From IMG/VR virus record IMGVR_UViG_3300027126_000052, positions 1 through 24,060 of that record: 24,060 nt of DNA; one strand, written 5' to 3'. How positions within the stretch are numbered: position 1 is the stretch's first letter; each line of letters opens with the position of its first letter. A program made the position numbers and the translations under genes. Source of the stretch: a virus. The notes under the pieces were generated by a model that made no database searches, was not told where the DNA came from, and worked only from the letters and a program-made list of their open reading frames with translations. Positions 8,742-24,060 of the stretch are shown piece by piece.

Positions 8742-11700
8742 TTATTCCTCTTTAAATGACCAAGGTTCTGCTTCTGCTCTGGTTTCTGGTATTTCAAGAC
8801 CGTCAATCATTTGATTTATTAGTCCTCTTATGTAAAAGTTACCTATAAATGGAAGTAACCTTGCAGACCGTTTAACATCATTTTGATTTATTTTTCCTGA
8901 ATAAGCCATACCCAATAAATTAAATACATCATTTACATAATCTATTCCAGCCCCACCTATTCGCAAATTTCTGTCCTTGTACCTTTCACCCTGTAACTTT
9001 GGAATTAATTCATTGTGAAAAGCCAAATTTAATCCTTCAACTGTGCTTGGTAATATTCCAAAAAAACCATTTTGCATGATTCCTTGAAGTGTTATTTTTT
9101 GCAAATCATCTTCATCTGTAAAAGCATCTTTCCCGTTGATAATTCTTCTTAAAGGTTCTTGCCATACGGATACTGCACTCATAGCTAAAAATCCTAACAA
9201 AGCTTTTGAGTCAGCACTTTGCATGGTTGGTATTAAGTATCTACCTGTAGCTGAAAAAGCCCAACCATTAAACATAAATAAGGTACCCATGATTGGATTA
9301 TTCAATAATAATGGACCAGAGAACAATTGTCTTTTTACAACAACATCACTCACTCCTCTTCTAACTGACATTACCATTCTTTGCTGCAAATCTGCATCAA
9401 GCCAGTTTTGATAATTTGAATCATAAGCTAGACCGTTAAAAGAAGAAGTACCTCCATATTTATTATATTGATCAACAAGAGGTCTCGCATCTTCTTCTAA
9501 TTGAATCCCAATGCGTGCCATCTGTATTTTTTGTGCCTTTGTGGCTTTTCCTGCTAGATAATCATGACATGCTTTAATAATATCTGATTGAAAACTTCTT
9601 TCAGCTATACTTTCATTCATATTTTCTATAGCGTTAGCAAAACTAAAGTTGCTTGATTTATGAGCAAGCCATTCTGAAGCTTTAACTAACTTCCCTAATT
9701 TAGATTCATAAGACATAGAATTCGAATGAAACCAAGAATTTTGGAGATTTGACGAAACATGGTTGAGTGCCAACAATGATTTTGCTGCTGATTCTTTAAG
9801 AATTTGCGCGTCTTTTGTTTTTAGCATTTTATTGAATGACTTTAAATGAGGTATTACACCCTTTGTAAGCCATGGTATAAAACCTGTCCGCAATAAAGAA
9901 GATGTTATATCTGTTAACTGAGCAATCGGCAAAGCTCCGAGTTTTGTGGAGTAGGCTAAATTTCTTAAGATGTGTAGTCCTTGTGAGGTTGTAGAACTAC
10001 CAAGTTTGTCATATCTTCCATGGTAAATATCATACATTGCAGATATATCAGAGACAGCATTGTTATAATCTTTTTTTAATTTACTTAACTGTTTATTTCT
10101 TTTTTGTCCAGATGGCTTTTTTAATATTTCAGCTTCTTTGGCTTTATATTCTTCAAGTCCTTTATCTAATAGTCCTTTTAATCCATCAACACCATAAGAT
10201 TCTTTGAATGCTTTTTTAAGGCCTATTCTTTTGCCCATGCTACCCATATATGCATGCATAGCTTTTGTTAAATCATTATCTAAATATCCAGCATCATTTA
10301 ATACTTCTTGTGGAATTAGCACGCTTCTTTCTTTTGTATAAATCGGTCTTTCCATTCCAGGATGAATACCATGGCCTAGAACCGCATCTGTCAAAGCCAT
10401 AGGTGAATTACCTAAAATAGACTGTCTTAAACTATAAGCAGCATTCATTCTAGATTTTTTAGTTGCATAAGTTTTAACAAAAGATGGCTCGGCATTTGGA
10501 TCTCTAAAAACTATTTCATCGTTTCGGAGGGTAAAAAATCTTTGATTTAATTTTCCTGTTCTTGCCATAGATCTTAAAGTATTTTTATCTAAACCTGAGT
10601 CTAATAGTTTTTTTAATTCTGAACGTTCTTTTGTATTTAAATGAACTCTGTCTTCAAGTAAAAAATGAAACTCTTCATTGTCTGTTAACTTCTCATTTAA
10701 TTCATCTTGGATAATTTGTTTTTTTTCCAATAAAATATTTTTTTGTAAGTTTAACTGCTCAGCTTCAATATCAGTTGCTTTAGAAATTTCTTGATCTAAA
10801 TTTTTAATAATTTTATTTATTGCAACAACTGGTTCTTTTAATTCCTTAACTAAATCATATTGAGTTTTTAGATGATTAGATACTAACTCATAAAAACCAT
10901 CTGGTTCAGCATGCAATTTATCTAAATTATAATTTTGGAAAATATAGTTTGCAGCATTTCTTGGTGATAAAAATTTTTCAATTCCATGCGCAGCTGCATA
11001 GTCTTCATTAATTTTTTCCATTATTGTTTGAAAATCTTTAGCGGCTAAATTTATTGAAGAAACTTCATCAGGTATGTCTTTTATAATAACATTTCTTACT
11101 CTGCGCCCAAATTCCTCAAAAGACATTGCTTTTTTTTCACTAAAAGCTTGAGTCATATTTTTAACTGCATTAACTGTTTGCAAAGAACTTGTTAAGCCAT
11201 TTGCAGCATAATAGTGCTCTAAATAAGCGCCACTAAATTTTGTTGCGGTGGCTCTATAATATGACTGTATTGCCTCCGCACTATCAGGTCTCGCAAATCC
11301 TTGTAATTCTTCTGCTGTTCTAATGCCATGGTCAGCAATATTGTTTACAAAGTCCCTGAAAAACTGAAAGTCGCTACTTAATCCTCTAAAGACCGGGCTT
11401 GCCAACATTGAACCTTTTTTTAGAACTTTACCTAGACCAGGAATTTTATATAAGCCAGACTCAGCAACCATATTGAGAGCCTCAATTTTTGCCTCTTTAA
11501 CTTTTTGAGCATTGCCAGCAATTTTCTCACCAGGAACAAAATCGTAACCAGTAATTTCTCCGTTTTCAAATATTGGATTTATAGTAGAGCCTTCATACTC
11601 CATATTCATTACTTTACGTGCATTCCAGATTTTCATGTTATCTAAACCATAACCTGTTGCTTTAGCAAATCCAGATAAAGCTCCTCCAAATATTGTATCT

Positions 11701-12386
11701 CTAAGTGTGTTAACAGCTAAATCAGGTAAATCAACTTGCATTTTGGATAATTGCAGGCCACCTTCGTAAGCAAGAGAATCTAGAGCAATATTAGGCAAAG
11801 CTTTTACTACGCTTGATAATGTATCTTGTGCAATTTTTCCTGTTCTTAATGTTGATAAACTTGGCAAAAACCACTTTGATATACCAACACCATAACTACC
11901 AACAGTTACCCCTAAAGCGCCTCCAATAAATCCACCTACTGCTGAACCATCTTCGAATCTTTGTTTGTTATATATTTCTTCTTGTATTCTCGCTTGGCGT
12001 GCCTTTAAATCATTCGGGCTTACTGCCTCACGAATATCAGGCCAGTATTCAGGAGGTATATTTTTATATAAATCTGGATCTTCAGTGTTAAAATTGTCAG
12101 GCACATCATCTTGCAAGTAATAAAGACTTAGTCCAGTTTGTTTTAAAGACTGGTAAGCATTTGGCCAAATGCCAAATTCTTTAAATCCTAAATATGCAGT
12201 TTCAAAAAGACCAGCTTTTGGCTCTTCATCCCCAACAGGCATTTCTGGTCTTAGGCCATATACAGATCCCATGTCAGCATTTGTAAGGTCGTATGGTAAA
12301 TCCTTAGGGTTGCTTATTCGATTAGCCTCAAAGCTTTCTATGGCTGCTTTGTTAATACTTTCAGTTGCATTAGTTTTTATTGCCAT
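8742..12386 (-). CDS. Large internal virion (ejection) protein, T7 gp16-like
   Basis: A protein of 1214 residues, the longest in the window, in the position of T7 gp16 between the gp15-like protein and the fibre. It is probably part of the inner core that is ejected into the cell and spans the envelope. Seen: a glycine-rich hydrophobic stretch at 147-170 (AVGGFIGGALGVTVGSYGVGIS), a charged coiled-coil-like region at about 510-570, and a C-terminal region with FNGWAFSATGRYLIP and LLGFLAMSAVSVW that could insert in a membrane. Unlike T7 gp16 I see no lysozyme-like SLT domain at the N-terminus. The start ATG 12386 has AAGGAA upstream. The call rests on size, order and style rather than a clear motif. 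Confidence 0.78.
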   Translation of the reverse strand: MAIKTNATESINKAAIESFEANRISNPKDLPYDLTNADMGSVYGLRPEMPVGDEEPKAGLFETAYLGFKEFGIWPNAYQSLKQTGLSLYYLQDDVPDNFNTEDPDLYKNIPPEYWPDIREAVSPNDLKARQARIQEEIYNKQRFEDGSAVGGFIGGALGVTVGSYGVGISKWFLPSLSTLRTGKIAQDTLSSVVKALPNIALDSLAYEGGLQLSKMQVDLPDLAVNTLRDTIFGGALSGFAKATGYGLDNMKIWNARKVMNMEYEGSTINPIFENGEITGYDFVPGEKIAGNAQKVKEAKIEALNMVAESGLYKIPGLGKVLKKGSMLASPVFRGLSSDFQFFRDFVNNIADHGIRTAEELQGFARPDSAEAIQSYYRATATKFSGAYLEHYYAANGLTSSLQTVNAVKNMTQAFSEKKAMSFEEFGRRVRNVIIKDIPDEVSSINLAAKDFQTIMEKINEDYAAAHGIEKFLSPRNAANYIFQNYNLDKLHAEPDGFYELVSNHLKTQYDLVKELKEPVVAINKIIKNLDQEISKATDIEAEQLNLQKNILLEKKQIIQDELNEKLTDNEEFHFLLEDRVHLNTKERSELKKLLDSGLDKNTLRSMARTGKLNQRFFTLRNDEIVFRDPNAEPSFVKTYATKKSRMNAAYSLRQSILGNSPMALTDAVLGHGIHPGMERPIYTKERSVLIPQEVLNDAGYLDNDLTKAMHAYMGSMGKRIGLKKAFKESYGVDGLKGLLDKGLEEYKAKEAEILKKPSGQKRNKQLSKLKKDYNNAVSDISAMYDIYHGRYDKLGSSTTSQGLHILRNLAYSTKLGALPIAQLTDITSSLLRTGFIPWLTKGVIPHLKSFNKMLKTKDAQILKESAAKSLLALNHVSSNLQNSWFHSNSMSYESKLGKLVKASEWLAHKSSNFSFANAIENMNESIAERSFQSDIIKACHDYLAGKATKAQKIQMARIGIQLEEDARPLVDQYNKYGGTSSFNGLAYDSNYQNWLDADLQQRMVMSVRRGVSDVVVKRQLFSGPLLLNNPIMGTLFMFNGWAFSATGRYLIPTMQSADSKALLGFLAMSAVSVWQEPLRRIINGKDAFTDEDDLQKITLQGIMQNGFFGILPSTVEGLNLAFHNELIPKLQGERYKDRNLRIGGAGIDYVNDVFNLLGMAYSGKINQNDVKRSARLLPFIGNFYIRGLINQMIDGLEIPETRAEAEPWSFKEE

Positions 12387-12395
12387 AGTATTTCC

Positions 12396-14741
12396 TTATC
12401 GAAACATTTTTCCAGATTCTAATAGTCTCATTGTGCCAGTTTTTTGTAATAAAAATCTATTTATAGCTGATTGAAAATCTTCTCCTTCAAATACACTTAC
12501 AGAACCATACCGTTCATTAATTTTATTTATGTTTGGTCTATAGTTAGGAGAAGTATAACTATTGCCAAAAGTTCCGTTCATTTGTTCTAAACCACCACTA
12601 CTATTTCTTAAATTAACATCATATCCACCTAAAGTTGGCTCTCCGGGATTGGTTAATGATATAAATGGGCTTGGTCTAACCTCAATTGTATATGGTATTT
12701 TTTCGCCTGTTCTTTTTAAGACTTTATAAATTGTAATAGGTTCGCCAGATAAGTATTGTTTTTGTAGTTCTTGTGCATTAGCAGAATTATTAATTTTTGC
12801 TTCAGAAAATTTATTGTAATTAATTCTTTCTGGTAATTCATAGTAAAAATCAAGTGTACTACCTTTCATGTCATAAACTGCTTTCATATTGTCAACATGC
12901 ATCTTAACTTGTTCATATACATCATCTTGAATTAAAGGTATTACTCGTTCATCTTTGTTCAAAGCTTTTTCAATAGGCATATAAACAAACTCTGAGCGAC
13001 CATTAACTTTTGTTGTTCCATAGTTTTGATTTATACCTTTTTGTACAAATGATTTTGCTAACTCCGCATTTCCTTTAAAATACACCAGTGCATCTTTGTA
13101 TGCATTTGCAACAGTTATGTTAAATGCTCCTTGATTTGGTATTGCAACACTTCTTGGTAAATTAACAAAAGTTTTTGCAAATGATTGTAATTGATTAGCA
13201 GAACTATGTTTATTGTTCCATTTTTGTGCTTCAGATTGGGCAAATTGCATTTCTTCTTTAGTTTGATAAATCATCCCTCTAGCCATTTCTACGGCTTGTT
13301 GATCTGATTCTGCAAAAGGCAACAATTCAGTAATTGCATGCTGTAGATGAGCCAACCGACTATCACTACTTCTTAATTCAGGAGAAAGTTTCTCTCCTTG
13401 ATTTGTATCGTACAAACGCTGAATTGTTTGGGCTGCTTTGATTGCTATAGAAGGATTGGGATTGCCAAGCTGCGTGGCTAATTGATTTGTATATGCTGGA
13501 CTTGAAACCGCCATGGTAGATTGCGCTCTAAATTGAGCTTCTTCTAAATTTATAGGTCGACCAAGATCTTGCGCTTTTTGCAACTCAGAGTTTGTTAACG
13601 CATCAAAAGCTTGGTTAACTTCTTTATTAGTTGCTCTTGACATGATAATTGGGTTTTGTGCATTTGCAGCAAGAAAATTAGTTTGTTCTATAGCTTTATT
13701 TGTTTTGTTTTGCTGATTTAAAAATTGTGAATAAAAATCATTAAAGCGAATAGGATCTAAATTTGTTTTCAAATTATCAATATCAGTTGGACTAAAAGTA
13801 TTGTTTTCCATTTTCACTTTAGCTTCTGATATTAAAAGATTTTGTTCTCTTTGTGTAAACATTTCATAGTTTTGTACAGATCTCAAAGCGGAGTTTCTTG
13901 CATTAGACCAATCTGTATAACCTACTTTAATACCAGCAAATTCTTCAGGAACATCGGTTAATGAGTTTAAAAATGGCTCTAATTTTTTTCCTTTGCTTGC
14001 ATCAATTGCTTGCCGACTTAACTCATTTGAAAGGTATAATTGTTTCAGTTCTTGTCTTTTGGCTTCTGCTGCACCTTTTGTTAATAAACCAGATTTTTCT
14101 TTTGCATTTATATAACCTATAGTTTGATCGAAGGTCTGTTTAGATTGGAGATTAGCATTTTCTCGACCACTTAAAGCAAGGTCAGTAATGTTTTTAGCTT
14201 GATTAGAAAGGTACAAGTCCGTATTTTCTTTTTCTTGTCTTTTTTGTTGACTTATAAGTTGATTATTTAAACTATAAACGTTTTGTTCTAATTTTGCCGT
14301 ATATTGATTAGCTAATTTAGATTTAATTGTAAAAGGCGCTTGTTCAATAATTTGTTGCAAACCTTGTTGCATATTTTTTGAATAACTTTGAATTGAGCCA
14401 TTGGACAATTGATAGTTATTGCTCAAATCTAAATGACCTTTTTGCAGCAATTGTTGAGCTTGCAAACCTAAGGTTTGTTCTGCCTGGGCACTATAACCTT
14501 CTACAAAAGCTTTATCAGCCTCTGTAATAGGAGGCAATAAATTACCACTAGGTTCCTTTCCTGCTTCTATTCCCCTGAGTTGTTGATATGTTTGAGATGC
14601 ATTTTGAGCCATTTTTACGCCGATATCTCCTAATAAATTAGAAGAACTAGCAAGTTGAGTCATTGCGTTTACATAATTCTGTGGCTGCGTTGTAATAGAA
14701 AGCCGTTGTGTTGGTTCAAGTGTTTGGATTTCAGTAGCCAT
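12396..14741 (-). CDS. Internal virion protein, T7 gp15-like
   Basis: A protein of 781 residues, rich in Gln and Asn, mostly helical, with repeated heptad-like stretches (for example LYLSNQAKNITDLA and AAEAKRQELKQLYLSNE). Its order, after a small gp14-like protein and before a giant gp16-like protein, matches the three ejection proteins of T7 podoviruses. It probably forms part of the internal core and, after ejection, a periplasmic tunnel. The C-terminus carries a basic, beta-like segment (NPGEPTLGGYDVN, RPNINKINERYGS, INRFLLQKTG). Its start overlaps the end of the gp14-like gene by 11 bases, and its stop is nine bases before the gp16-like start. No enzyme motif is visible. Confidence 0.78.
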   Translation of the reverse strand: MATEIQTLEPTQRLSITTQPQNYVNAMTQLASSSNLLGDIGVKMAQNASQTYQQLRGIEAGKEPSGNLLPPITEADKAFVEGYSAQAEQTLGLQAQQLLQKGHLDLSNNYQLSNGSIQSYSKNMQQGLQQIIEQAPFTIKSKLANQYTAKLEQNVYSLNNQLISQQKRQEKENTDLYLSNQAKNITDLALSGRENANLQSKQTFDQTIGYINAKEKSGLLTKGAAEAKRQELKQLYLSNELSRQAIDASKGKKLEPFLNSLTDVPEEFAGIKVGYTDWSNARNSALRSVQNYEMFTQREQNLLISEAKVKMENNTFSPTDIDNLKTNLDPIRFNDFYSQFLNQQNKTNKAIEQTNFLAANAQNPIIMSRATNKEVNQAFDALTNSELQKAQDLGRPINLEEAQFRAQSTMAVSSPAYTNQLATQLGNPNPSIAIKAAQTIQRLYDTNQGEKLSPELRSSDSRLAHLQHAITELLPFAESDQQAVEMARGMIYQTKEEMQFAQSEAQKWNNKHSSANQLQSFAKTFVNLPRSVAIPNQGAFNITVANAYKDALVYFKGNAELAKSFVQKGINQNYGTTKVNGRSEFVYMPIEKALNKDERVIPLIQDDVYEQVKMHVDNMKAVYDMKGSTLDFYYELPERINYNKFSEAKINNSANAQELQKQYLSGEPITIYKVLKRTGEKIPYTIEVRPSPFISLTNPGEPTLGGYDVNLRNSSGGLEQMNGTFGNSYTSPNYRPNINKINERYGSVSVFEGEDFQSAINRFLLQKTGTMRLLESGKMFR

Positions 14742-15246
14742 AATTTACCTCTTCTAAACCGTAGGAAGCTTTTCCTTTTTTCCCTAAACCAGCGGTTAAA
14801 CTAGATATTGGAATTAAGTTAATAAACCGTTGCTGCATAGCTTGACCAAGTTGAGTTTGGCTAGATAAAGCATGTAAACCAGACAACACATTTCCAGCTC
14901 TAAGGTCTGCTTCTTTAGCAAGTTGATTCATTCTACGCACTCTTTCGTCTTCGCTAAATGCTGCCATGGATGTTTGTCTTAGGGTAGAGGCTGTACCTCC
15001 TGCGCTACTTGTTCCTCTTGCTGCTTGAACTGCAATTTGAGTGCCAATATTTTGTCTTAACTGTTTCATGGCAAACAATGATTCTTGCTCTGTTTGTGCT
15101 CTAAGAGATTCAAGATTAGCTTCATATTGTGCTTGCTCAATCTCACGACCAGCTTGTATTAAACCCTGTTGTCGGCGTGTTTGCGTATAATCGACAATCA
15201 TGCCGGCTGCTTGCATTCCTAATAATATTCCAGCGAAAGGTAACAT
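14731..15246 (-). CDS. Internal virion protein, T7 gp14-like
   Basis: A protein of 171 residues. The N-terminus is a hydrophobic glycine- and alanine-rich segment (FAGILLGMQAAGMIV), followed by a long helical region rich in Gln, Glu and Arg (about 22-70). Then come an ARGTSSAGGTASTLRQTSMAAFSEDE segment and a second helix. This arrangement, an N-terminal membrane-like segment with a GTSS-GG-S motif in the middle, is typical of gp14-type internal proteins, which enter the outer membrane during ejection. It begins two bases after the nozzle stop and overlaps the gp15-like gene, so it belongs to the same translational block. Confidence 0.83.
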   Translation of the reverse strand: MLPFAGILLGMQAAGMIVDYTQTRRQQGLIQAGREIEQAQYEANLESLRAQTEQESLFAMKQLRQNIGTQIAVQAARGTSSAGGTASTLRQTSMAAFSEDERVRRMNQLAKEADLRAGNVLSGLHALSSQTQLGQAMQQRFINLIPISSLTAGLGKKGKASYGLEEVNYGY

Positions 15247-15248
15247 AA

Positions 15249-17546
15249 TTATTCCTCGATTTTGTAATACACGCCAATTAATCTTATATCAAAAGGGTCA
15301 CTGTGTGTGATTGTAATTGGATCTCTTAAAAACTCATTCCAGCCTTTCATGAGGCTTTTACTAAATATGCCTGTCTGTGGCACTGGTGGCCCTAATGGAT
15401 TATATTGATTAAGAGTTTGTAATGTAATTGGCTGACCATCAATCTCACCACCAATAGTATTGTTAAACATGAATGTAGCGTTACGGATATGTTGTGGGTA
15501 AACTAAACTAGTGCCTTTTGGCCCTGTGGCTCCGGGTGGCGCATTAGGTAAGGTTTGAATAACCATGTTGATAGGTAGCCCAATGAATGCCTCTGTAACA
15601 TCTGTAGGTTGGCCATGTGCAATAAATTCGACTGTTGAATTTGTTACACTGTCTTGAAATCCATAACCATCGCCTTGCATAACAACATCTTTGCCGTTAA
15701 ATCTTGGCAGACCTGCAATGCTATTTACTGGAGGTCCTGAGTAAACATGACTGCAATCAGTAAATACATTAAAGCTTAACTCTTCAATAAAATATTTGGT
15801 GCTATAAGTAAAAGGTGCAACAAGTTCATTAGCAACTTTTCTTTCTACAACAAACCATGCACGACCATCTGGACTACTTGCGCCCCATCTAAAATAGGCT
15901 CTAAGCTCTGGTTTATTATCGTTGATTTCACCTGTGATGCATGATGTAAAACCTGTCACATTTTCATTCATTAATGTTTGGTAAACAACAAGGCTGCCAT
16001 CGTCATTGATAATAAATATGTACCTACTACCTGCACGATTTAAATTCTGAAATGAGACTTCATCGTGAGGTGCGCTGATAAGGTGTTCGGAGGTAACACT
16101 CACAATATTTGACATGTAAGAGTTATTGCCACCATCCCAAAGCATTGTGTGAACATCATTACCACTGATAATAATAATCTGATTATCTATGCCTTGTGGT
16201 TGAATTGCCGTTGCAGGAGTTGAATCTTGCAGTTGCAATGAAAATGTTTTAGGTGTTAAAGCAGTTTCGTAGATTAATGGTGAGGAAAAAATTGCTGAAT
16301 TTGTATGAACCGTTAAGCTTCGATATGGCACAATAAATTTAATAACATTTACAGTGTCGCTTGACGGAAAATAACTGATTGCATCGTCATCAGCTGGGTC
16401 TAATAATAATTCATCAAAGTTATTAAAATCATTAATTGCTGATAACCATAAACCATTTGGTAATGCATCGGTATTTGCAAATATAGCACGGCTTTGAAAA
16501 CTAGAGCATTTGCTTGGAAAACCTCTTTTAGTGGACCAAGCTGGTTCTCTAACTTCAACTAATCGGCCTAATTGTGCTGTTAGTGTGCTTAAAGTACTGG
16601 TTACTGTGCCTGTCATTTGTGTTGCTGATACATAAGCTGTGAATGAGACACAACCATTTGATAGAAATATACTTCCACCGACATGCTCTGGTGTAAACAC
16701 ATTTCCTGAGCTTGTAATGGTACATGCTGTACCAACAGTCACTGAGGTTGGTGTAAAAGTAAAAGTATCGTAATTTACATCACCAAAATCATATTGAGGC
16801 AAATTAGTGAATACAATTGGTGTTAGAGTCCAGTTGTTTGCTATTAGTACGTTTGTAGTACCTGCGCCAACGGTATTTAATGTAAAAGCATTTGTGTTGT
16901 TTGCTGCATCACGGGCAGTTGCGTAAACTTTAATCAAGGTTCCTGTCGCATCAGTACGAATGAAGTACGTTACACCTATAAGTATTTGTGGTGTTGTACT
17001 AGGCATACTTGCCGGTACTGCATTTGTAAATCGTGCTGCTGATATCAAATTTGCTGCAACTGGATTAGTTAATGTAAATTGATTTGAAACAATACCAGCA
17101 CCAGTATTGATTGGATTTGCTGCTAAACTGGAACGACTTAAGATATGTGGTTGGATAATATCAGCTGTTATTTCAAATTTATCTTCAAGTATTGTCCAGT
17201 CCATTGTTCGAATAACATGGCTTGTTAGTATGGCATTTGCAACAGTAGCGACTAATTCGTTTTCTAAATAAATTTCAACTTGTCCGGGAACAAAAGCTAA
17301 AACATATGTACATTCATTTTTATAAGGAAAAGTTTCAAAGAAAATATCACGCCAATCTGTTACACCAGTAATTTCGGCCGTGTATATAGTACCGAATCTT
17401 TTACCAATACCACCTTGAGGGTATGTAATAGTATTCTGTGCCTTTTTTAAAGATTTATAATAAGCGTCAAGAGTAGTTCTACCGTAAAGCATAGGTGACA
17501 ACTCACCTCTACTAAACTCATCTTGTGACCATATAATTTGTGGCAT
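15249..17546 (-). CDS. Tail tubular protein B (nozzle), T7 gp12-like
   Basis: A protein of 765 residues. The N-terminal signature FSRGELSPMLYGRTTLDAYY (about 12-30), followed by NTITYPQGGIGKRFGT, is the hallmark of podovirus tail nozzle proteins. Later segments with PSKCSSFQSRAIFANTD and a KNTDTVNVIKF-like strand pattern suit the beta-propeller body. It forms the lower tail tube and gates DNA. The start ATG 17546 has AAGGGGA close upstream. It sits between tail tubular A and the gp14-like gene, the same order as T7 gp11, gp12 and gp14. The length is close to that of T7 gp12 (794 residues). Confidence 0.92.
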   Translation of the reverse strand: MPQIIWSQDEFSRGELSPMLYGRTTLDAYYKSLKKAQNTITYPQGGIGKRFGTIYTAEITGVTDWRDIFFETFPYKNECTYVLAFVPGQVEIYLENELVATVANAILTSHVIRTMDWTILEDKFEITADIIQPHILSRSSLAANPINTGAGIVSNQFTLTNPVAANLISAARFTNAVPASMPSTTPQILIGVTYFIRTDATGTLIKVYATARDAANNTNAFTLNTVGAGTTNVLIANNWTLTPIVFTNLPQYDFGDVNYDTFTFTPTSVTVGTACTITSSGNVFTPEHVGGSIFLSNGCVSFTAYVSATQMTGTVTSTLSTLTAQLGRLVEVREPAWSTKRGFPSKCSSFQSRAIFANTDALPNGLWLSAINDFNNFDELLLDPADDDAISYFPSSDTVNVIKFIVPYRSLTVHTNSAIFSSPLIYETALTPKTFSLQLQDSTPATAIQPQGIDNQIIIISGNDVHTMLWDGGNNSYMSNIVSVTSEHLISAPHDEVSFQNLNRAGSRYIFIINDDGSLVVYQTLMNENVTGFTSCITGEINDNKPELRAYFRWGASSPDGRAWFVVERKVANELVAPFTYSTKYFIEELSFNVFTDCSHVYSGPPVNSIAGLPRFNGKDVVMQGDGYGFQDSVTNSTVEFIAHGQPTDVTEAFIGLPINMVIQTLPNAPPGATGPKGTSLVYPQHIRNATFMFNNTIGGEIDGQPITLQTLNQYNPLGPPVPQTGIFSKSLMKGWNEFLRDPITITHSDPFDIRLIGVYYKIEE

Positions 17547-17555
17547 ATGCTCCCC

Positions 17556-18149
17556 TTAAGAAATACTATTAGGATAAACACCACCAATAGCACGATTGCC
17601 AAGAACAGGGAAATCAACCTGAGTAAACTGAGGTCTATTTTGACAATCAATTGCACATGCCATGGCTTGCATCTGATTTCGTTTACCTTCGATAACACTG
17701 TAGTATTCGGTTTTTTGAGCATTACTTAAACACAAGTATGCTGCTATTTCATAAACAAAGTAATTTACAAACCAAGGTGGGAGAGCTGAAACATCAGGCT
17801 GATAAATAAACTGCATATACCACGGCCCTTGGTTAAATGTGTAAATCTTGTTTCCATTAAAAATATCCCAGTCATATGTGTTTGGCCACACACTTAATGT
17901 TTTTAACCAACCACTGGGGAGTTGATATACATATAAATAAGGTGGTGGAGGTGTTTCAACAAGCAAAGATAGTTGTTCAAACTTGCTTGCAAATCTCCAG
18001 TTGTTTGCTGATAGAACACTTGGCAAAAGCATGTCAAAAGCTTGCTCTGCTGCTACAACTAATTCATCTTGGTCTATCAATGACACGATAGGTGCATGGC
18101 CCAACTGGGCCAAAGCATTTGAAATGATTTGTACTTTTGTTAAGGCCAT
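17556..18149 (-). CDS. Tail tubular protein A (adaptor), T7 gp11-like
   Basis: A protein of 197 residues. The start (MALTKVQIISNALAQLGHAPI), then an LPSVLSANNWRFA helix, the YVYQLPSGWLKTL strand pair, and the C-terminal PPWFVNYFVYEIAAYLCL helix match the T7 gp11 or tail-adaptor family that forms the ring under the portal. Its length agrees with T7 gp11 (196 residues). It has AGGGGA upstream of the ATG, and its stop is nine bases from the nozzle start. The C-terminal extension (RPQFTQVDFPVLGNR) is the usual strand that docks on the nozzle. Confidence 0.92.
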   Translation of the reverse strand: MALTKVQIISNALAQLGHAPIVSLIDQDELVVAAEQAFDMLLPSVLSANNWRFASKFEQLSLLVETPPPPYLYVYQLPSGWLKTLSVWPNTYDWDIFNGNKIYTFNQGPWYMQFIYQPDVSALPPWFVNYFVYEIAAYLCLSNAQKTEYYSVIEGKRNQMQAMACAIDCQNRPQFTQVDFPVLGNRAIGGVYPNSIS

Positions 18150-18161
18150 GCAATTCCCCTA

Positions 18162-18821
18162 TTAGCTAGCTGCTCTTAAAACTTGATAATACAACACCAA
18201 GTCAGCACCTGGGTCACCAGAAAAAATAACTGTAATGGTGTTTAAAGTTGCTGCTGCTGATAATACAGTACGGTTATTCGTACCATCATTTTTAACTTGC
18301 ACAAATACTAAGTCAGTAGCTGCAACTCCGGTTACTGTAAACGCTTCTGTAGCACTACCACCAACAGTTGTTACTTGTGCAGCATATTTAACAATGTGAC
18401 TTGGAGTAATTCCAGATGCTAATTTTGCTAATGTTACGTTAGCATTTAGAATTTTTGCAGTTTCAACAGCATCATTTGCAAGTTTAATTGCAGTTACTGC
18501 ACCATTCTGTAAATTAGCTGTACCAACTGAACCAACTGGTCCAAATGTAACAACAGTAACAGTACCAGCGGTTTGGTTAACAGCATCTACATAATACATG
18601 CCGTTAGCATCACTTGCTTCAATGATAATAATATCACCTACCGCTAAATCATATACTGCTGATGCAAAATAGTTAGCAGCTGTAACAGTTGCAATATCAT
18701 CAGTAGCAGAAGCATAACTGAAAATTGCTGGTCCATTTGTAAAAGCTGGGCCGTCTACTGTTACACGTCCACTGTTGAACGCTAAAGTATGTCTAGTAAA
18801 TCTTTGGTCATTAAAAGCCAT
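18162..18821 (-). CDS. Capsid decoration or head-fibre candidate
   Basis: A protein of 219 residues directly after the capsid gene. The first 100 residues are beta-rich (AIFSYASATDDIATVTAANYF, DLAVGDIIIIEASD). Residues 102-138 hold three imperfect copies of a short stalk repeat (NGAVTAIKLAN, DAVETAKILN, ANVTLAKLAS), a pattern found in trimeric phage head and tail fibres. The remainder is a beta domain ending in DLVLYYQVLRAAS. BPP-1 has a cement protein (Bbp16) in this place, but I cannot show homology. The strong ribosome site AAAGGGGA fits a product made in high copy. A trimeric decoration protein is an inference. Confidence 0.72.
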   Translation of the reverse strand: MAFNDQRFTRHTLAFNSGRVTVDGPAFTNGPAIFSYASATDDIATVTAANYFASAVYDLAVGDIIIIEASDANGMYYVDAVNQTAGTVTVVTFGPVGSVGTANLQNGAVTAIKLANDAVETAKILNANVTLAKLASGITPSHIVKYAAQVTTVGGSATEAFTVTGVAATDLVFVQVKNDGTNNRTVLSAAATLNTITVIFSGDPGADLVLYYQVLRAAS

Positions 18822-18836
18822 TTTTATTCCCCTTTA

Positions 18837-19667
18837 TTATGCAGTTTCATCGCATTCGATTCCCAATACGCCCCGGGAATCGATCACTGTGGCTCCAGCA
18901 CTGAATACACCGTTTACTAAGTAAGAGGTGTTCTGTGGAATGTAGTTCACTTCGGTGCGGAAATTCATACCGATACCCATACCAGTTGACATTTTGTGCC
19001 ATGCTAAAGCGGTACGAATGTTTCCGGTTTTTGGTAAGCCACCCTCTGTCATTTGTGGAACTACGATAACGTTGAAACCTAAGTATTCACGAATGCGTGC
19101 ACGGTCAATTACATCATTTCTGGTGTAGAAAGTAGAAACGAATTGGTCATCTTGCATTAAAGACTTGAAGTTATTTGCAGACATAGCTACATAACGCTCT
19201 GCAAGTGGCACTGCGTTGTTATCAAAGAACTCTAAACATTGGGTAAATTTCAAGTAGTTGAAGTTTGTACCGCCATCTGCAATAGTGTCACCGGGATTAG
19301 CAACTAATGCATCAATGGTGATTTGGTCAGAACGACGACCCATAGCTTGAGCGACTAACATGGCGTTTTCCATTTTAGCGTCAAAGTTTACTGTTAGTTC
19401 TTGTACTTCGTCTACTGCGGTAGGTGTGGTGTATTTTTGTAAAGTACATACTGCTTTGTTGTAACCGGGATCTTGAATGGTTACTGCTGCTAAGTAAGCA
19501 GTTGGTACAGAAATTACTTGATCTACTTTACGAAACTCTACGCTTGCACCGATAACATCGTATTTTGTACGAATGGTATCACGCATTAAAAAACCTGTAG
19601 AGCGATAGATTGCTTTTACCAACGCATCGAACTCGATTTGTTGGACATTAGTTAAACTTATGGACAT
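18837..19667 (-). CDS. Major capsid protein, BPP-1-like (short HK97 fold)
   Basis: A protein of 276 residues in the expected place between scaffold and head-tail genes. Features include an N-terminal arm (QIEFDALVKAIYRSTGFLMRDTIRTKYD), a central VQELTVNFDAKMENAMLVAQAMGRRSDQITIDAL helix (the spine), a helix with LKFTQCLEFFDNNAVPLAERY, and EYLGFNVIVVPQM near residue 196. This composition resembles the Bordetella phage BPP-1 capsid family rather than T7 gp10. The codons look well chosen, and the ribosome site (TTAAGGGGATTAAAATG) is among the strongest here. A leader with promoter and hairpin precedes it. The fold assignment is inference from pattern. Confidence 0.87.
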   Translation of the reverse strand: MSISLTNVQQIEFDALVKAIYRSTGFLMRDTIRTKYDVIGASVEFRKVDQVISVPTAYLAAVTIQDPGYNKAVCTLQKYTTPTAVDEVQELTVNFDAKMENAMLVAQAMGRRSDQITIDALVANPGDTIADGGTNFNYLKFTQCLEFFDNNAVPLAERYVAMSANNFKSLMQDDQFVSTFYTRNDVIDRARIREYLGFNVIVVPQMTEGGLPKTGNIRTALAWHKMSTGMGIGMNFRTEVNYIPQNTSYLVNGVFSAGATVIDSRGVLGIECDETA

Positions 19668-19750
19668 TTTAATCCCCTTAAATAGTTAATGATGTTTTAT
19701 TAAGTATTATTGGGCTTGTAAAATGTTGGTTGTCCGTGAAGGGCCGATTA

Positions 19751-19793
19751 TGTACAAGTTATCCAATTCCCAGAAAAACTGGATACTTGTACA
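19751..19793 (-). other. Long inverted repeat in the capsid-gene leader
   Basis: Two arms, TGTACAAGTTATCCA (19751-19765) and TGGATACTTGTACA (19780-19793), pair over 14 bases with one bulged base and a 14-base loop. A short alternative hairpin, CCAG-aaaaa-CTGG (19770-19782), competes with the inner part. No T-run follows on the minus strand, so it is unlikely to be a terminator. It may be an RNase III site, an mRNA stabiliser or an operator. Confidence 0.75.
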
Positions 19794-19794
19794 C

Positions 19795-19824
19795 ATTATA
19801 AACCGCTATTTACTTAGTTTGCAA
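19795..19824 (-). promoter_or_regulatory. Candidate sigma-70 promoter for the capsid gene
   Basis: On the minus strand TTGCAA (19824-19819) and a perfect TATAAT (19800-19795) are 18 bases apart. The start of transcription would fall near 19788, about 120 bases before the capsid ATG at 19667. The -35 lies inside the end of the scaffold gene. Match quality is good for the -10 and moderate for the -35. No experimental support is visible. Confidence 0.45.
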
Positions 19825-20505
19825 TCTTTCGATTTTTGCAGTTATTTCTCTTCGATATCTTGGATCTGATTTATATTTTTCAATATTCTGAATCATCTCA
19901 AGTTGCAAATCTTCAAGACTATGTACGCCATCAGATTGTGATTGCTCATTGCCCGGTATCATTGTGTTTTGTCCTAACATTTTTGACCTCAATTCTTCTA
20001 ATGCTAACACTGCGTCAGCGGTTCTTAAATTTGATGTTAAAGCATAAAATGAGTCTTCAGATAAATTAGATTTAGCCCAGTTGTTTAAGATTTCTAATCT
20101 TTCATCTGCTTTATCACCTAAAGCCTGTTTTTCAGCATTATAGTCGATATTAAACTCATCCATGTACTTACCAACTGCGGATAACATTTTATCCATCACG
20201 TCTTGTGGTACACGTTTTGATTTAGCATATTGAGCCAATTCTTGAAATGGTTCATAGTCTGGGTCAATCCAGCCTTGTCCTGCTTCCCATGAATATTCAT
20301 TAGGTGCATCACCAAATCTTTTTTGTAATTCTTGATAGGACTTTGCAACATCCGAGGCTTTTTTAAATTGGCTTGGCAACCAGTCAGGTCTATCACCTAC
20401 ACCGGGGGTATTATCATCAAGCCACCAAGAAGGTTCTTGTTTTTGTATACCAGCGTCTTGCATAGCCATATCTTCTACTGTTGACGTTATAGTATCAAAA
20501 CTCAT
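19810..20505 (-). CDS. Scaffolding protein
   Basis: A protein of 231 residues, acidic and mostly helical. The block PSWWLDDNTPGVGDRPDWLPSQFKKASDVAKSYQELQKRFG at about 25-65 is a widespread podovirus scaffold signature (PG-G-RPDWLP, K-DVAKSY-EL). A central QELAQYAKSKRVPQDVMDKML helix follows, with a C-terminal helical tail rich in charges (EMIQNIEKYKSDPRYRREITAKI) of the type that contacts the capsid. Its start overlaps the stop of the Bbp19-like gene (ATGA). It lies between portal and capsid, as expected. It should be needed for procapsid assembly and be absent from mature virions. Confidence 0.88.
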   Translation of the reverse strand: MSFDTITSTVEDMAMQDAGIQKQEPSWWLDDNTPGVGDRPDWLPSQFKKASDVAKSYQELQKRFGDAPNEYSWEAGQGWIDPDYEPFQELAQYAKSKRVPQDVMDKMLSAVGKYMDEFNIDYNAEKQALGDKADERLEILNNWAKSNLSEDSFYALTSNLRTADAVLALEELRSKMLGQNTMIPGNEQSQSDGVHSLEDLQLEMIQNIEKYKSDPRYRREITAKIERLQTK

Positions 20506-20822
20506 GCTTCACCTGCTGCTCTGCGTGCTTCTTCATCTTTTCGTATTTGATAGCTTTGTACACTACCAATGATTTGTCGAAAAGCTTCCCTAAAGCCTTC
20601 ATAATAAATACATGCTTTATCATAGTTATCATTAATTTGGCTTGGTGTTCCGGGTATGATAAAACGCTCTTTGAATATCTCTAAAAGCTTTCTACCACCA
20701 TCAGAATTAAACACATCCCAACATAACTCGTCGAGCTGTACTACATCTGTGTTACGCTCAGGTTGTGCTGTTTGATACTGTTCATAAAAGTTCTCAGGAT
20801 TTATATATTGATTTTCACTCAT
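20502..20822 (-). CDS. Bbp19-like small phage protein
   Basis: A protein of 106 residues. The central pattern CWDVFNSDGGRKLLEIFKERFI, then PSQINDNYDKACIYYEGFREAFRQIIGSVQSY, fits small proteins related to Bordetella phage BPP-1 Bbp19 (a helix with GR-LL-L, then an EG-R--R-I helix). Its function is not known. It sits between portal and scaffold and overlaps the scaffold gene by four bases, so it probably takes part in head assembly. The start ATG 20822 follows the portal stop by two bases; no separate strong ribosome site is required if translation is coupled. Confidence 0.72.
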   Translation of the reverse strand: MSENQYINPENFYEQYQTAQPERNTDVVQLDELCWDVFNSDGGRKLLEIFKERFIIPGTPSQINDNYDKACIYYEGFREAFRQIIGSVQSYQIRKDEEARRAAGEA

Positions 20823-20824
20823 TC

Positions 20825-22408
20825 TTATACCTCTGGTAATTGTGCTGCTGGTGCTGCACCTTGCTGTTGCATTAACATGTCTTGCTGCTCATTCAACTTG
20901 TCTTGTTGTGCTTGAAACACTCTTGCAACTTCTTCCGGAGCATTCAACAACCGACTATCAATTTGCATCAAGTCTGCTAATAGATACGGATATTCCATTG
21001 GGTTAATAAATGCTTGTGCTGCTTCAGGGCCACTGATACCTTGCAATAATTGAAAGTACTGTGTGAATCTGGCTATTTGCTCTTGTCCCTTAGCTAAAGC
21101 AAGTGGTGACCTGTAAACGAAAGAGATCAACTTTCTGTCTAGATTTGGATATGGAAGCAAACCCATTTTGTCCAGAATGTATGAGCATCTTTCGATTACT
21201 GGCCATAGAAACTCTTGTTGTAACCTACTAAATAAAGGCCCAATACGTTCAGCCAAGGTTTGATTTTGTATCATTAATTGCGTAGCACTAACTGGTTGCT
21301 TAGAGTCAGTTGGAATGATTGAATCTGCAAACATTAGGCTACGAATTTGCATACGCAAATCTTGGATACTCAATTGGCTAAACTGAGGATTTGAAGTATC
21401 AGGCAATGGAATTAAAGGTGGTTGACCACCTGCGCCTAATGGTGCAATTGGAATGATTGTCATAGGCTGTAATTTAAATGTGTGTGGGTTAAATGTTGCG
21501 TCAGTAAATGCCATGTATGGTTTGAATGTATTAAGGTTTGCTGCTGCAAGTTCAATGCGTGCAAGTTCATTTAAACTGATAATAGAAGGCAATGCATCCA
21601 TAATTGGACCACGCCCATATGTATCGTTGTTTGTTTTTTGGAAACGCCACACAATACCGGGATTTACTTCAAACTCATCTACATACAAAATCTCACTGTC
21701 AGTACAAACCACATACTGATAACTCTTTTTTTGTTGTGGATTATACATAACACCTTCGTACACCATCTTGATTGTGTAGTCAGGATTGTTTCTCATCATC
21801 TGTAATATGCTTGGTGGTATTACTGCATTGCGCCAGCGTGTTGTTATCTCACTTGCTTTAACATCTTCCCAGTTACGATACCATGACTCTATTCTACCAG
21901 TCATTGCTTCTTCAATAGCAAGCTTATCCATAGGTATAGATGTAAATAACAACGGTTGTTCGTCAGTGTATTGATTCACTACCAAACAAGATGTGCCTAC
22001 CGCCAAATCAAAATAACATTCATTAATTACTACATCGAAATTAGAATCATGGATGTATTCAAATAGTTTGCGCATGTAATCATTTAACATACGTTGAGCG
22101 TCATCACGACTTATTCCTGCATCGTCCTCATCAAACTCAGGGTCAACACTCAAGAATCCCCATTGCGTTTGTGGTGGGGTCATAGCGGTATGTAGTTTCG
22201 ATACAAACGTTTTTGTCGCTTCGATAGCCGTTGTATCATAAACCCTTGTACCTTTCGACTCACCTTGTTGCTCTTTTGGTCTCCAGAATCTATTTCGATT
22301 TGGTATTGCATAGAAATAGCAAGCTTCGTGCAGACTCGCCCAAAGATAGCTAATTTGTTGCGCTCTATCGTAACGCTTCTTAAATTGATCTAAAAGTCTG
22401 TCTGCCAT
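20825..22408 (-). CDS. Portal (head-tail connector) protein, T7 gp8-type
   Basis: A protein of 527 residues, close to the T7 gp8 length (536). The N-terminus (LDQFKKRYDRAQQISYLWASLHEACYFYAIPNRNRF) and KGTRVYDTTAIEATKTFVSKLHTAMTPPQTQWGFL are diagnostic of the head-to-tail connecting protein family. Later YGRGPIMDALPSIISLNELARIELAAANL (the stem helix region) and PVSATQLMIQNQTLAERIGPLFSRLQQEFLWPVIERC (the wing and crown) also match. The C-terminus is Gln-rich (QDMLMQQQGAAPAAQLP). It forms the dodecameric ring through which DNA passes and to which TerL docks. It precedes the Bbp19-like gene by two bases. Confidence 0.95.
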   Translation of the reverse strand: MADRLLDQFKKRYDRAQQISYLWASLHEACYFYAIPNRNRFWRPKEQQGESKGTRVYDTTAIEATKTFVSKLHTAMTPPQTQWGFLSVDPEFDEDDAGISRDDAQRMLNDYMRKLFEYIHDSNFDVVINECYFDLAVGTSCLVVNQYTDEQPLLFTSIPMDKLAIEEAMTGRIESWYRNWEDVKASEITTRWRNAVIPPSILQMMRNNPDYTIKMVYEGVMYNPQQKKSYQYVVCTDSEILYVDEFEVNPGIVWRFQKTNNDTYGRGPIMDALPSIISLNELARIELAAANLNTFKPYMAFTDATFNPHTFKLQPMTIIPIAPLGAGGQPPLIPLPDTSNPQFSQLSIQDLRMQIRSLMFADSIIPTDSKQPVSATQLMIQNQTLAERIGPLFSRLQQEFLWPVIERCSYILDKMGLLPYPNLDRKLISFVYRSPLALAKGQEQIARFTQYFQLLQGISGPEAAQAFINPMEYPYLLADLMQIDSRLLNAPEEVARVFQAQQDKLNEQQDMLMQQQGAAPAAQLPEV

Positions 22409-22412
22409 GTTT

Positions 22413-22694
22413 TTAGCCTAATGTTTGTTGATAGCCAGAGTCACTCATTGGTTGTAAGAATCCACTAGAGCGATATTTACGTCTCATTGACCGAATCGTT
22501 TTTTCTTGGATACGTTGTTGTTCCATTTGCTTCTCAGCACCGATTCTTTTTTGTTCTTCAATTGCAGATTGCTTTTGCTGATAATAAGTATTTACTGCAT
22601 CAGCTCTTGCTCTTTTTTCTGCTTCACTTGTATGTGGTACTAATCCACCTACAACGTCTTCTATTTTTTTTAAACCTTTTGATAGCCAGCTCAT
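22413..22694 (-). CDS. Small coiled-coil protein before the portal
   Basis: A protein of 93 residues. The N-terminus (MSWLSKGLKKIEDVVGGLVPHT) is an amphipathic, weakly hydrophobic helix. Residues 22-70 are highly charged and helix-forming (EAEKRARADAVNTYYQQKQSAIEEQKRIGAEKQMEQQRIQEKTIRSMRRK), followed by a flexible end. Similar short proteins lie upstream of the portal in many podoviruses and are found in virions as minor structural proteins, but I cannot name the family. The start has GAGGG six bases upstream and the gene lies four bases from the portal start. A minor virion or assembly protein is inferred. Confidence 0.72.
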   Translation of the reverse strand: MSWLSKGLKKIEDVVGGLVPHTSEAEKRARADAVNTYYQQKQSAIEEQKRIGAEKQMEQQRIQEKTIRSMRRKYRSSGFLQPMSDSGYQQTLG

Positions 22695-22703
22695 TTTATA
22701 CCC

Positions 22704-22838
22704 TCATATCCAAATGTGAACATAAATTACTTTTTCTACAAACTCATCGGGATGAATTTCCCTTTCAACGTATACTATTCTATACGGTATTTTAATCTGT
22801 TGCTTTAGTTTCTTTAATTGCTGCGATATTGTTGCCAT
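22704..22838 (-). CDS. 44-residue ORF overlapping the end of the small terminase
   Basis: In a frame different from the small terminase, ATG 22838 opens 44 codons that run 47 bases inside the terS 3' end and then fill the otherwise empty 97 bases before the next gene, ending in TGA at 22704. The product starts MATISQQLKKLKQQIK and continues IPYRIVYVEREIHPDEFVEKVIYVHIWI, a basic helix followed by a strand-helix-strand pattern that looks like a folded small protein. There is no clear ribosome site at the ATG, so it would rely on coupling to terS. I do not recognise a family. The absence of any other use of this gap supports it. Confidence 0.5.
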   Translation of the reverse strand: MATISQQLKKLKQQIKIPYRIVYVEREIHPDEFVEKVIYVHIWI

Positions 22839-23373
22839 TATGCATATTCATCTTAATCAAATCGTCTTTCATTTTATCGACTTGTTCTTGTAATTTAAAT
22901 GATTCATACGCACGAATACCAATGTTTATAGATTCCATTAGTTGTTTAATTTCGCTTGCACAAAACTCACCGCCTGTGGCTTGTTCTATAAGTTGTTGAT
23001 ACTGTGTGTGTGGGTCAGCACTACTATCTACATTTAAACGTATTCTAGCACTTCTGCCGTAGTTATAACGTTGTGCGCCAATACCTTCCCAGTACTTAAA
23101 GTTAAAGTCTGGGTTGTCAGCGTTTTCCTCGCCTTCACGTTCCCACATTACCTGAGCATACAAACTTGCAAGTCTTGAGCATTCGTCAAAGATGGGATAA
23201 GTATTTCGCCATTTATAAAATCGTTTTTCTGAAATGCAAGCTTCTAAACAGAACTCAGCAACAGTACCACCATTACCGATAATATTTAATACCATTAAAC
23301 AATGGATTTGTTCATCGTATATTTGATTATGCGTTTTTACTTTATTGTATATTTTCTTAGGGTCTAGTTTCAT
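22792..23373 (-). CDS. terS: Terminase small subunit (putative)
   Basis: A protein of 193 residues from ATG 23373; a TTG just upstream is equally possible, both close to AGAGGAG. Residues about 30-80 (MVLNIIGNGGTVAEFCLEACISEKRFYKWRNTYPIFDECSRLA) fit a helix-turn-helix of the type that binds the packaging site. It is followed by EREGEENADNPDFNFKYWEGIGAQRYNY, a pattern I know from phage small terminases, and a C-terminal helical tail. It is the first gene of the minus-strand operon, far from the large subunit. The call rests on pattern and place, with no close homologue checked. Confidence 0.75.
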   Translation of the reverse strand: MKLDPKKIYNKVKTHNQIYDEQIHCLMVLNIIGNGGTVAEFCLEACISEKRFYKWRNTYPIFDECSRLASLYAQVMWEREGEENADNPDFNFKYWEGIGAQRYNYGRSARIRLNVDSSADPHTQYQQLIEQATGGEFCASEIKQLMESINIGIRAYESFKLQEQVDKMKDDLIKMNMHNGNNIAAIKETKATD

Positions 23374-23425
23374 CAATAGATTCTCCTCTATAATTATTCT
23401 GTACTATTTTTGGAGAAATTACAAA
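23374..23425. promoter_or_regulatory. Divergent 52-base spacer with candidate -10 element
   Basis: This short AT-rich gap separates terS (minus) and the lysozyme gene (plus). It holds a perfect TATAAT on the plus strand (23389-23394), but no good -35 at 17 or 18 bases, plus the ribosome site GGAG for the lysozyme and AGAGGAG for terS. Divergent promoters are expected here. The minus-strand one is not clear to the eye. Confidence 0.35.
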
Positions 23426-23893
23426 ATGATTGATAATAAGCAATTGCGAGAACAAATTATAAAACCTGCTTTAGATAGTTTACAAATGTATAGTGATAAC
23501 GCTATGGAGTTACTTGTATTTACTTGCGCATGTGAATCGTTAGGTGGCACATACGTTAAACAAGTCAAAGGGCCTGCACTCGGTATCTATCAAATGGAAC
23601 CTGCAACTTATACAGACATTTGGGAAAACTATATTAAACATAGTTCGTCTTTAGTTCAGTTGTTAGCACTAAACTTTGCTTCCCCTTCAATTCCAAACCC
23701 AGAACGCATGGTATATGACCTGAGGTTTGCAACGGCCATGGCACGACTACACTATCGTAGACGCAGTGAACCTTTGCCCCAACATACTGATATTGAAGCG
23801 ATTTGGGAATACTATAAAAAGTATTACAACACCCATTTAGGCAAAGCAGAAAAAGAGGAATCAATTAAACATTACCGGAAGTTTGTAAAGTAG
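23426..23893 (+). CDS. Lysozyme-like (SLT-type) transglycosylase, probable endolysin
   Basis: The only convincing plus-strand gene; 155 residues. ACESLGG places the likely catalytic glutamate at E37, and GPALGIYQMEPAT (49-61) has the G-YQ motif of lysozyme-like transglycosylases; a WEYYKKYYN helix lies near the C-terminus. It should cleave the glycan strand of peptidoglycan during lysis or entry. There is no signal peptide from the ATG at 23426, so release would need a holin. An in-frame TTG upstream at 23345 would add a hydrophobic stretch but lies inside terS and lacks a ribosome site. The gene is the only one transcribed away from the virion operon. Its 3' end overlaps a converging ORF by 29 bases. 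Confidence 0.83.
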   Translation: MIDNKQLREQIIKPALDSLQMYSDNAMELLVFTCACESLGGTYVKQVKGPALGIYQMEPATYTDIWENYIKHSSSLVQLLALNFASPSIPNPERMVYDLRFATAMARLHYRRRSEPLPQHTDIEAIWEYYKKYYNTHLGKAEKEESIKHYRKFVK

Positions 23894-24060
23894 TTTGATT
23901 CGCCATAACATCGCTTAGCTCAATAATATGTAAGCAGTGATTGCACATTAATGTGGTCACTTGCTTCATATGTGGGCTGCATACCCACGAAACTGGTATA
24001 TAGTTATGATTATCGCTTATACCGCACACCTTAGCCTTCTCTATCCACATAGGGTTACAC
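23865..24060 (-). CDS. Partial hypothetical ORF with cysteine pairs (right edge)
   Basis: An open frame enters from the right edge with no start visible beyond an in-frame ATG at 24050 that lacks a ribosome site. The readable part contains CNPMW, KVCGIS, SWVCSPHMK and TLMCNHCLHII; the spaced Cys and His residues suggest a small zinc-binding domain. It ends in TAA 28 bases inside the end of the lysozyme gene on the other strand. I cannot name a family. If this is a real gene, it faces the lysozyme gene. If not, the 167 bases after the lysozyme hold only an imperfect inverted repeat (23932-23966). Confidence 0.4.
   Translation of the reverse strand, partial: CNPMWIEKAKVCGISDNHNYIPVSWVCSPHMKQVTTLMCNHCLHIIELSDVMANQTTLQTSGNV

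Follow-up and report, generated by a model that had tools for sequence, protein, structure and literature searches.

The general class to which SD-sequestering leaders belong comprises translational riboswitches and other leader RNAs in which the Shine-Dalgarno (SD) sequence can be hidden by pairing. The leader described here resembles translational riboswitches in being a 5' leader that combines a conserved core, conserved unpaired bases and a strand common to the core and an anti-SD hairpin, and differs from them in having no Rfam match, in standing before phage capsid genes and in carrying two coupled copies of a loop. To our knowledge, few structured regulatory RNAs are known before the virion genes of tailed phages. 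The gene 10 leader of T7, with its RNase III sites, is likewise structured and precedes a capsid gene amid similarly ordered genes; in contrast to it, the relatives of the phage studied here keep another structure. The phage RNA motifs manA, wcaG and PhotoRC-II, likewise structured RNAs found by comparison in phages and metagenomes, are linked to metabolic or photosynthesis genes, and the word “capsid” does not occur in the main text of the article describing them (PMC2864571). In phage HK022, putL spans about 70 nt, and put RNA, located in early operons, forms two stem-loops in a V shape and binds the beta' zinc-binding domain, according to the accessible text of PMC9378689. Both put and the capsid leader are structured RNAs of phages that closely follow a sigma70 promoter; the capsid leader differs in being a nested twin-loop hairpin and in its place before the capsid gene.

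The window analysed here is an IMG/VR virus record (IMGVR_UViG_3300027126_000052) taken over its whole stretch of 24,060 bases. Portal-type and tail genes surround its capsid and scaffold genes, and a long series of same-strand genes lies downstream of the leader. A sequence-only reading had drawn attention to a promoter and a 14-bp inverted repeat (P0 below) before the capsid gene. The structure that is kept near-universally was overlooked in that reading: it is a twin-loop core, and P0 forms one edge of this larger element (Table 1). The presence of a conserved structured leader RNA before the capsid gene is practically certain. Its core consists of two copies, one nested in the other, of a 4x1 internal loop with the pattern GG-RYAM-helix/helix'-Y-CC, read along the leader as GG-RYAM, a helix, the hairpin Y-CC-loop-GG-RYAM, the other helix half and Y-CC. 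Both RYAM loops of the window, AUAA and ACAA, are equal at positions 3-4 and are accompanied by GG/CC clamps.

Table 1. Features of the capsid leader and its surroundings in the window, in the order of transcription, with the related leaders of the MEP301 type in the last line.
Feature	Position	Strand	Basis
Scaffold / head-assembly gene, 231 aa, upstream of capsid	19810..20505	-	phrog_1052, E 4.1e-10
-35 hexamer TTGCAA, inside last scaffold codons	19819..19824	-	promoter scan; relatives often TTGACA
-10 hexamer TATAAT, non-coding	19795..19800	-	read directly and promoter scan
P0 5' arm (TGTACAAGTATCCA..)	19780..19793	-	repeat listing, fold; covariation
P0 3' arm (TGGATAACTTGTACA), also GG, loop 1 and P1 5' strand of core	19751..19765	-	repeat listing, fold, models R1/R2
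Twin-loop RNA core	19709..19765	-	R1 19.5 bits, E 0.036 (window outside seed); R2 57.5 bits (window in seed)
GG clamp of module 1, partner CC 19712-19713	19763..19764	-	helix 1: 100% of cells paired across 90 distinct rows, almost invariant
Loop 1, AUAA	19759..19762	-	model alignment, loop count
P1 5' strand CUUGUA	19753..19758	-	covariation, alignment
Module 2 5' side: P2 GG 19744-19745, unpaired C 19743, CC 19741-19742	19741..19745	-	covariation, alignment
GG of module 2, pairs with CC 19741-19742	19734..19735	-	covariation, alignment
Loop 2, ACAA	19730..19733	-	alignment, loop count
P2 3' strand CC	19728..19729	-	covariation, alignment
P1 3' strand UACAAG 19715-19720, unpaired C 19714, CC 19712-19713 (anti-SD strand of P3)	19712..19720	-	covariation, P3 tests
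P3 hairpin: CCC 19712-19714 with SD GGG; AU stem 19699-19708 with 19681-19690	19674..19714	-	MFE; family-wide P3 test
SD of capsid gene, AAGGGG	19674..19679	-	read directly
Major capsid protein gene, 276 aa	18837..19667	-	phrog_3437, E 4e-36
MEP301-type leaders	L082 2831-3003; L295-L374 upstream of capsid start		

There is clear evidence for the core in capsid relatives from IMG/VR, 80 of which were kept out of 168 (67-100% identity). Covariance model R1, built from eight distant leaders with the window excluded, matched 67 of 81 sources at E up to 1 in the 490 kb of the window and the 80 loci, with one match each, and missed the other 14. Eight of these matches are its own seed and 59 fall outside it, including the single match in the window (19.5 bits); all are in the capsid leader and none elsewhere. 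As many single E-values are weak (0.036 for the window), it is the common position that constitutes the evidence. Model R2, refined from the 67 R1 rows and with the window included in its seed (A5), matched all but one of 52 group sources (51). With the loci of a further capsid search added (66 of 80 used, the other 14 being contigs already in the first set) it matched 97 of 98 leader sources, many outside the seed and part inside A5, and the sole miss, L035, has a leader that looks alike by eye. The accepted matches of both models all precede a phage capsid gene or, at the contig end of L087, its missing part. In whole records, exactly one match was obtained with R1 in 13 of 21 and with R2 in 17 of 19, never two; R1 was silent in eight and R2 in two of these records, though all hold the leader.

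The pairs themselves covary. Alignment A7 (98 rows, 90 distinct, including the chance match L168) has 90.7% of 1309 cells paired and two-sided changes in 12 of 15 pairs (shuffled mean 9.1), with a covariation score of 0.454 vs 0.151 in shuffles, none of 500 reaching it, and at most 0.090 in slid controls; being fitted to the model, A7 leans towards the structure. An earlier count on A5 agrees (92.1% paired, 11 of 15 pairs), while the MAFFT alignments A1, A2 and A3 misaligned the loops and were not used. L168 (22.4 bits) is a chance match to a DnaA box that was removed before the loop count and retained in the pair counts of A7.

Searches beyond the close relatives outlined how far the core extends. 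A pattern scan of viral contigs for GGATAACTT..CCC..GGATAAC returned, among the matches listed, mostly repeats that we take to be DnaA-box-like, and was also the source of L155, in which the core (R2 44.8 bits) precedes a 423-aa capsid with about 20% identity to that of the window and the same PHROG. In this biased set, of which 80 of 120 loci were searched, further R2 matches at E 0.04-0.9 were spurious. Arrays of the DnaA-box-like repeat TGTGGATAACTT occurred in many virus contigs (L099, L140, L146 and others, among the matches listed). A second scan, for the ACAC loop type in the whole virus collection, found 23 contigs, 15 of them with R2 matches at E <1e-8, all at the capsid gene and 13 known earlier; the other eight had no R2 match at the pattern, and one R2 match at E 0.95 was spurious. 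R2 gave no matches in five distant isolates, seven divergent capsid loci from bacterial bins and two bacterial-bin genomes, nor in 274 genomes of one bacterial class searched with strict filters and without a positive control. Rfam 15 had no match at the gathering threshold in the window and in 17 loci, and E-value searches yielded only miRNA- or snoRNA-type chance matches. No capsid leader RNA of such a kind is described in the literature searched, which covered openly accessible main-text passages, among them those of PMC8024684, PMC9378689, PMC2864571, PMC8040213 and PMC9004378.

The CC of module 1 is at the same time the start of hairpin P3, the end of which is the SD. Comparison of the leaders shows that, as predicted duplexes, this CC can instead pair with the capsid SD throughout the family. 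Over 95 of 98 distinct leaders (three without a usable site were set aside) the tested duplex has a mean of -6.1 vs -4.2 kcal/mol when shuffled. In 27 dissimilar representatives the values are -6.5 vs -4.36 kcal/mol, and the variable part alone gives -1.42 vs -0.44, neither being reached in 1000 shuffles. The tested part is weak in the window (-2.0 kcal/mol), L155 (-1.8) and L016 (-2.5), yet the P3 hairpin is in the window's minimum free energy (MFE) structure.

Such overlapping pairings suggest that the leader might be a cis-acting switch that controls capsid translation through exclusive pairings, a reading that we hold with about as much belief as doubt. P0, the core and P3 would be mutually exclusive. 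With the core formed, GG would hold CC, the ribosome site would be free and capsid would be made; with the core unformed, CC would lie on the SD and capsid would stay low. The core might be favoured by something that binds both loops alike or by direct loop-loop contact. In computed folds of the window the probability of P1 is 0.00-0.01, also for RNA begun at the local start, and in no case does the energy model by itself prefer the core. As the folds disfavour the core, the ON state would need extra, assumed stability.

The two loops are identical at positions 3-4 in all 89 distinct rows (L168 excluded), with position 2 free, and fall into the types AA/AA (73), AC/AC (13) and CA/CA (3), while shuffles of the loops agree in a mean of 61.9 and a maximum of 72 of 89 rows. 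On a tree of 95 capsids the loop state changes jointly at least eight times, and in all six independent pairs on supported branches the loops change jointly (sign test p 0.031). Since recombination may carry leaders from phage to phage, not every change on this tree is to be taken as a point mutation, and some might be whole-leader transfers. The spacing between the loops varies, from 11 to 16 nt on one side and from 14 to 19 nt on the other, which is mild evidence for a shared partner over a rigid loop-loop contact. In an autoregulatory scheme the capsid or another phage protein would bind both loops and repress or activate capsid translation. Two like sites that change in step suggest one recognising partner, and the leader is tied to capsid genes. 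We consider such autoregulation unlikely, since phages whose capsids are 95-97% identical can differ in loop type, neither of the rarer loop types has a diagnostic capsid residue, and a Pfam scan of ten window proteins named an RNA-binding domain in none of them.

The head of the leader carries TTGCAA and TATAAT at a spacing of 18 nt (10 of 12 hexamer matches), as the sequence-only reading had it, and direct reading bears out both hexamers at their positions. Transcription is predicted to start at about 19788, 7 nt after the -10, inside the first arm of P0 as had been proposed. Taken alone, the match in the window is not beyond chance, as 33 promoter-type matches were found on both strands of 10000-24060 vs 50.3 expected; its recurrence in relatives is. 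Within 90 nt before the core, a best promoter score of at least 10 (the threshold) is present in 73% of 97 leaders vs 1.9% of approximate dinucleotide shuffles, a recurrence that is inflated and in part perhaps due to the protein, given that the -35 lies inside scaffold codons in relatives (by eye). Sigma70-type -35 and -10 elements at 16-19 nt recur in the relatives, and TTGACA-19-TATAAT, its -10 preceded by TG, is present in many of them. The window, with its 18-nt spacer, scores 9.5 against the threshold of 10, and about a quarter of leaders score below 10, among them L155 (7.5), which has no clear promoter. Comparison shows a putative sigma70-type promoter before most leaders and supports the earlier view that a promoter heads a structured capsid leader. 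In relatives, by eye, the TTGACA overlaps the codons of a recurring scaffold C-terminus, GYVDK (e.g. L208 about 1330-1340), where protein and promoter would use the same nucleotides. A search for a T7-like RNA polymerase matched none of 21 records, and the control was equally silent, hence it was uninformative.

The leader could also be read as a case of processive antitermination of the HK022 putRNA kind, in which the nascent leader would bind host RNA polymerase and the long operon would be read through. Like putL, this structured RNA (about 55 nt) closely follows a sigma70-type promoter, and a long same-strand gene series comes after it. Antitermination appears quite unlikely here: terminator-like sites are not in excess in 10000-24060 (seven found vs 9.2 expected, with Rho-dependent ones outside the count), the RNA lies immediately ahead of the capsid gene, none of the records searched has a second copy, and L155 has the core without a clear promoter. 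Further, the leader has one nested hairpin, not two stem-loops, and antitermination would leave the SD pairing unexplained.

P0 proved to be as large as claimed, with arms of 9 perfect bp and 5 bp separated by one bulged A, 14 bp in all and at the coordinates originally given. The minus-strand RNA of 19830-19660 (171 nt) folds more stably than expected by chance (-40.2 kcal/mol, z -3.75, with one of 200 shuffles reaching this energy), and P0 dominates this fold. The short hairpin CCAG-TTTTT-CTGG at 19782-19770 (-) had been called competing, which is fair, as it occurs in computed alternative folds; it is absent from the MFE structure, where the same bases lengthen the P0 stem. Base changes that keep P0 paired, a check suggested by the sequence-only reading, were found in close relatives. 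Nine distinct rows of the window's clade, out of 12 distinct segments (in the three omitted ones the paired arms are the same as in rows that were kept), have 96.3% of cells paired and three of 15 pairs changed on both sides. The covariation score is 0.185 vs 0.085 in shuffles (reached in none of 500) and at most 0.067 in slid controls, while two of the five measures lie within the range of the shuffles (53 of 500 reach the number of two-sided pairs, and 237 that of pair types). All three double-changed pairs sit 2-5 nt 5' of the predicted +1, so these bases would be present only in read-through RNA or DNA. Outside the window's clade P0 is gone or has another hairpin in its place, and it is missing in groups that keep both capsid and core, e.g. 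L049-L062, L064 and L067 (all by eye). The P0 5' arm resembles the 3' strand of the core (ACAAG-UAU-CC vs ACAAG-C-CC) and might be a decoy of it.

The length and stability of P0 in the window, together with some hairpin near the 5' end of many relatives (by eye), could point to an RNase III processing site, as suggested earlier by analogy to T7, or to a 5' stem-loop that merely stabilises capsid mRNA. As a main function, RNase III processing found no support, and we regard either role as very unlikely, because P0 differs freely and is absent from several groups that retain capsid and core (by eye), and because neither role needs conserved unpaired loops or SD pairing. Also without support as a main function, and highly improbable, is a DNA operator, as once considered, or a cruciform, with a regulator bound to the inverted repeat at the promoter: the P0 arms do flank the predicted start and bases 5' of it covary, but the repeat is limited to part of the family, the family-wide constraint consists of RNA-type pairs including G-U plus loops, and the near-universal part is a second structure that reuses the P0 3' arm otherwise.

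Returning to a switch of exclusive pairings, the computed energies depend on where the RNA starts. For read-through RNA the ensemble with P0 reaches -52.7 vs -36.6 kcal/mol with P1 enforced. RNA from +1 at 19788 has a whole ensemble of -29.8 (its MFE being a P0-type fold) vs -25.8 with P1 enforced, and RNA from 19787 one of -28.9 vs -25.8. The computed advantage of P0 over the core fold is thus about 16 kcal/mol for read-through RNA and shrinks to some 3-4 kcal/mol for RNA begun at the predicted local start. The proposal that locally started mRNA could not form the hairpin holds for the full hairpin only, as most of it still forms from 19788, and a dependence on the start site is plausible only in this weaker form. 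Read-through RNA of the window would be locked in P0, and RNA from the local promoter, with a clipped P0 5' arm, would reach the core fold more easily. The clipped arm would tie capsid translation to the local promoter. An 8-bp inverted repeat (ACATTTTA/TAAAATGT, 19719-19726 with 19664-19671) would enclose the capsid start codon AUG in a helix; as a family feature this helix was rejected, being present, among the leaders compared by eye, only in near relatives of the window.

A sister clade around the cultured phage MEP301 has leaders of a different build. R2 matched none of 42 MEP301-type loci (41 of 80 fetched plus MEP301), and their leaders contain a second, larger conserved RNA with the same two modules in tandem (GG-CNNA/C-CC) and an extra conserved hairpin, GGCTAT-CGTAA-ATAGC. 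Across 22 rows (21 of the 80 loci plus MEP301), 95.7% of 506 cells are paired, 15 of 23 pairs are double-changed and the covariation score is 0.476 vs 0.157 in shuffles (0 of 500 reach it), the structure having been drawn on this very alignment. Both loops are CNNA in 22 of 22 rows but do not agree with each other at positions 2-3, so the comparisons show like-with-like coupling for the window's family alone. No Rfam match was found for the MEP301-type leader. In several of these leaders the AAGG of module 1 coincides with the predicted start (by eye), and the word “promoter” does not occur in the accessible text of the MEP301 article (PMC8024684).

The module occurs in both types of leader and might on that account be portable. 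We tentatively propose, as possible but doubtful, that these leaders represent a new type of RNA switch in phages, whose coupled loops would touch like-with-like (A-A, C-C) or bind two copies of one ligand and would free the ribosome site of the capsid gene solely on mRNA from the capsid promoter, the module being general and portable for capsid control in this phage group. Almost all of the close relatives examined retain the leader immediately ahead of the capsid gene, its folded shape having persisted despite strong divergence in sequence. The like-with-like coupling of its loops is unusual, and the leader probably helps to set the timing of shell protein production. Being small and well delimited, it lends itself to structure probing, to the search for a ligand and to reporter assays, and the related leader in MEP301 makes experiments possible.

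Elsewhere in the window, 1605-2093, 2645-3232 and 8742-12386 resemble a DUF1353 / tail assembly chaperone-like protein, an endonuclease VII-like protein and an internal virion protein with an endolysin domain, respectively. More distant capsid leaders that R2 does not match (L084, L288, L289, L291, L293 and L294) have, by eye, single hairpins of the inner-module type, e.g. GGG-C-CGGGGACTCCCCG-ACAA-CCC in L288.
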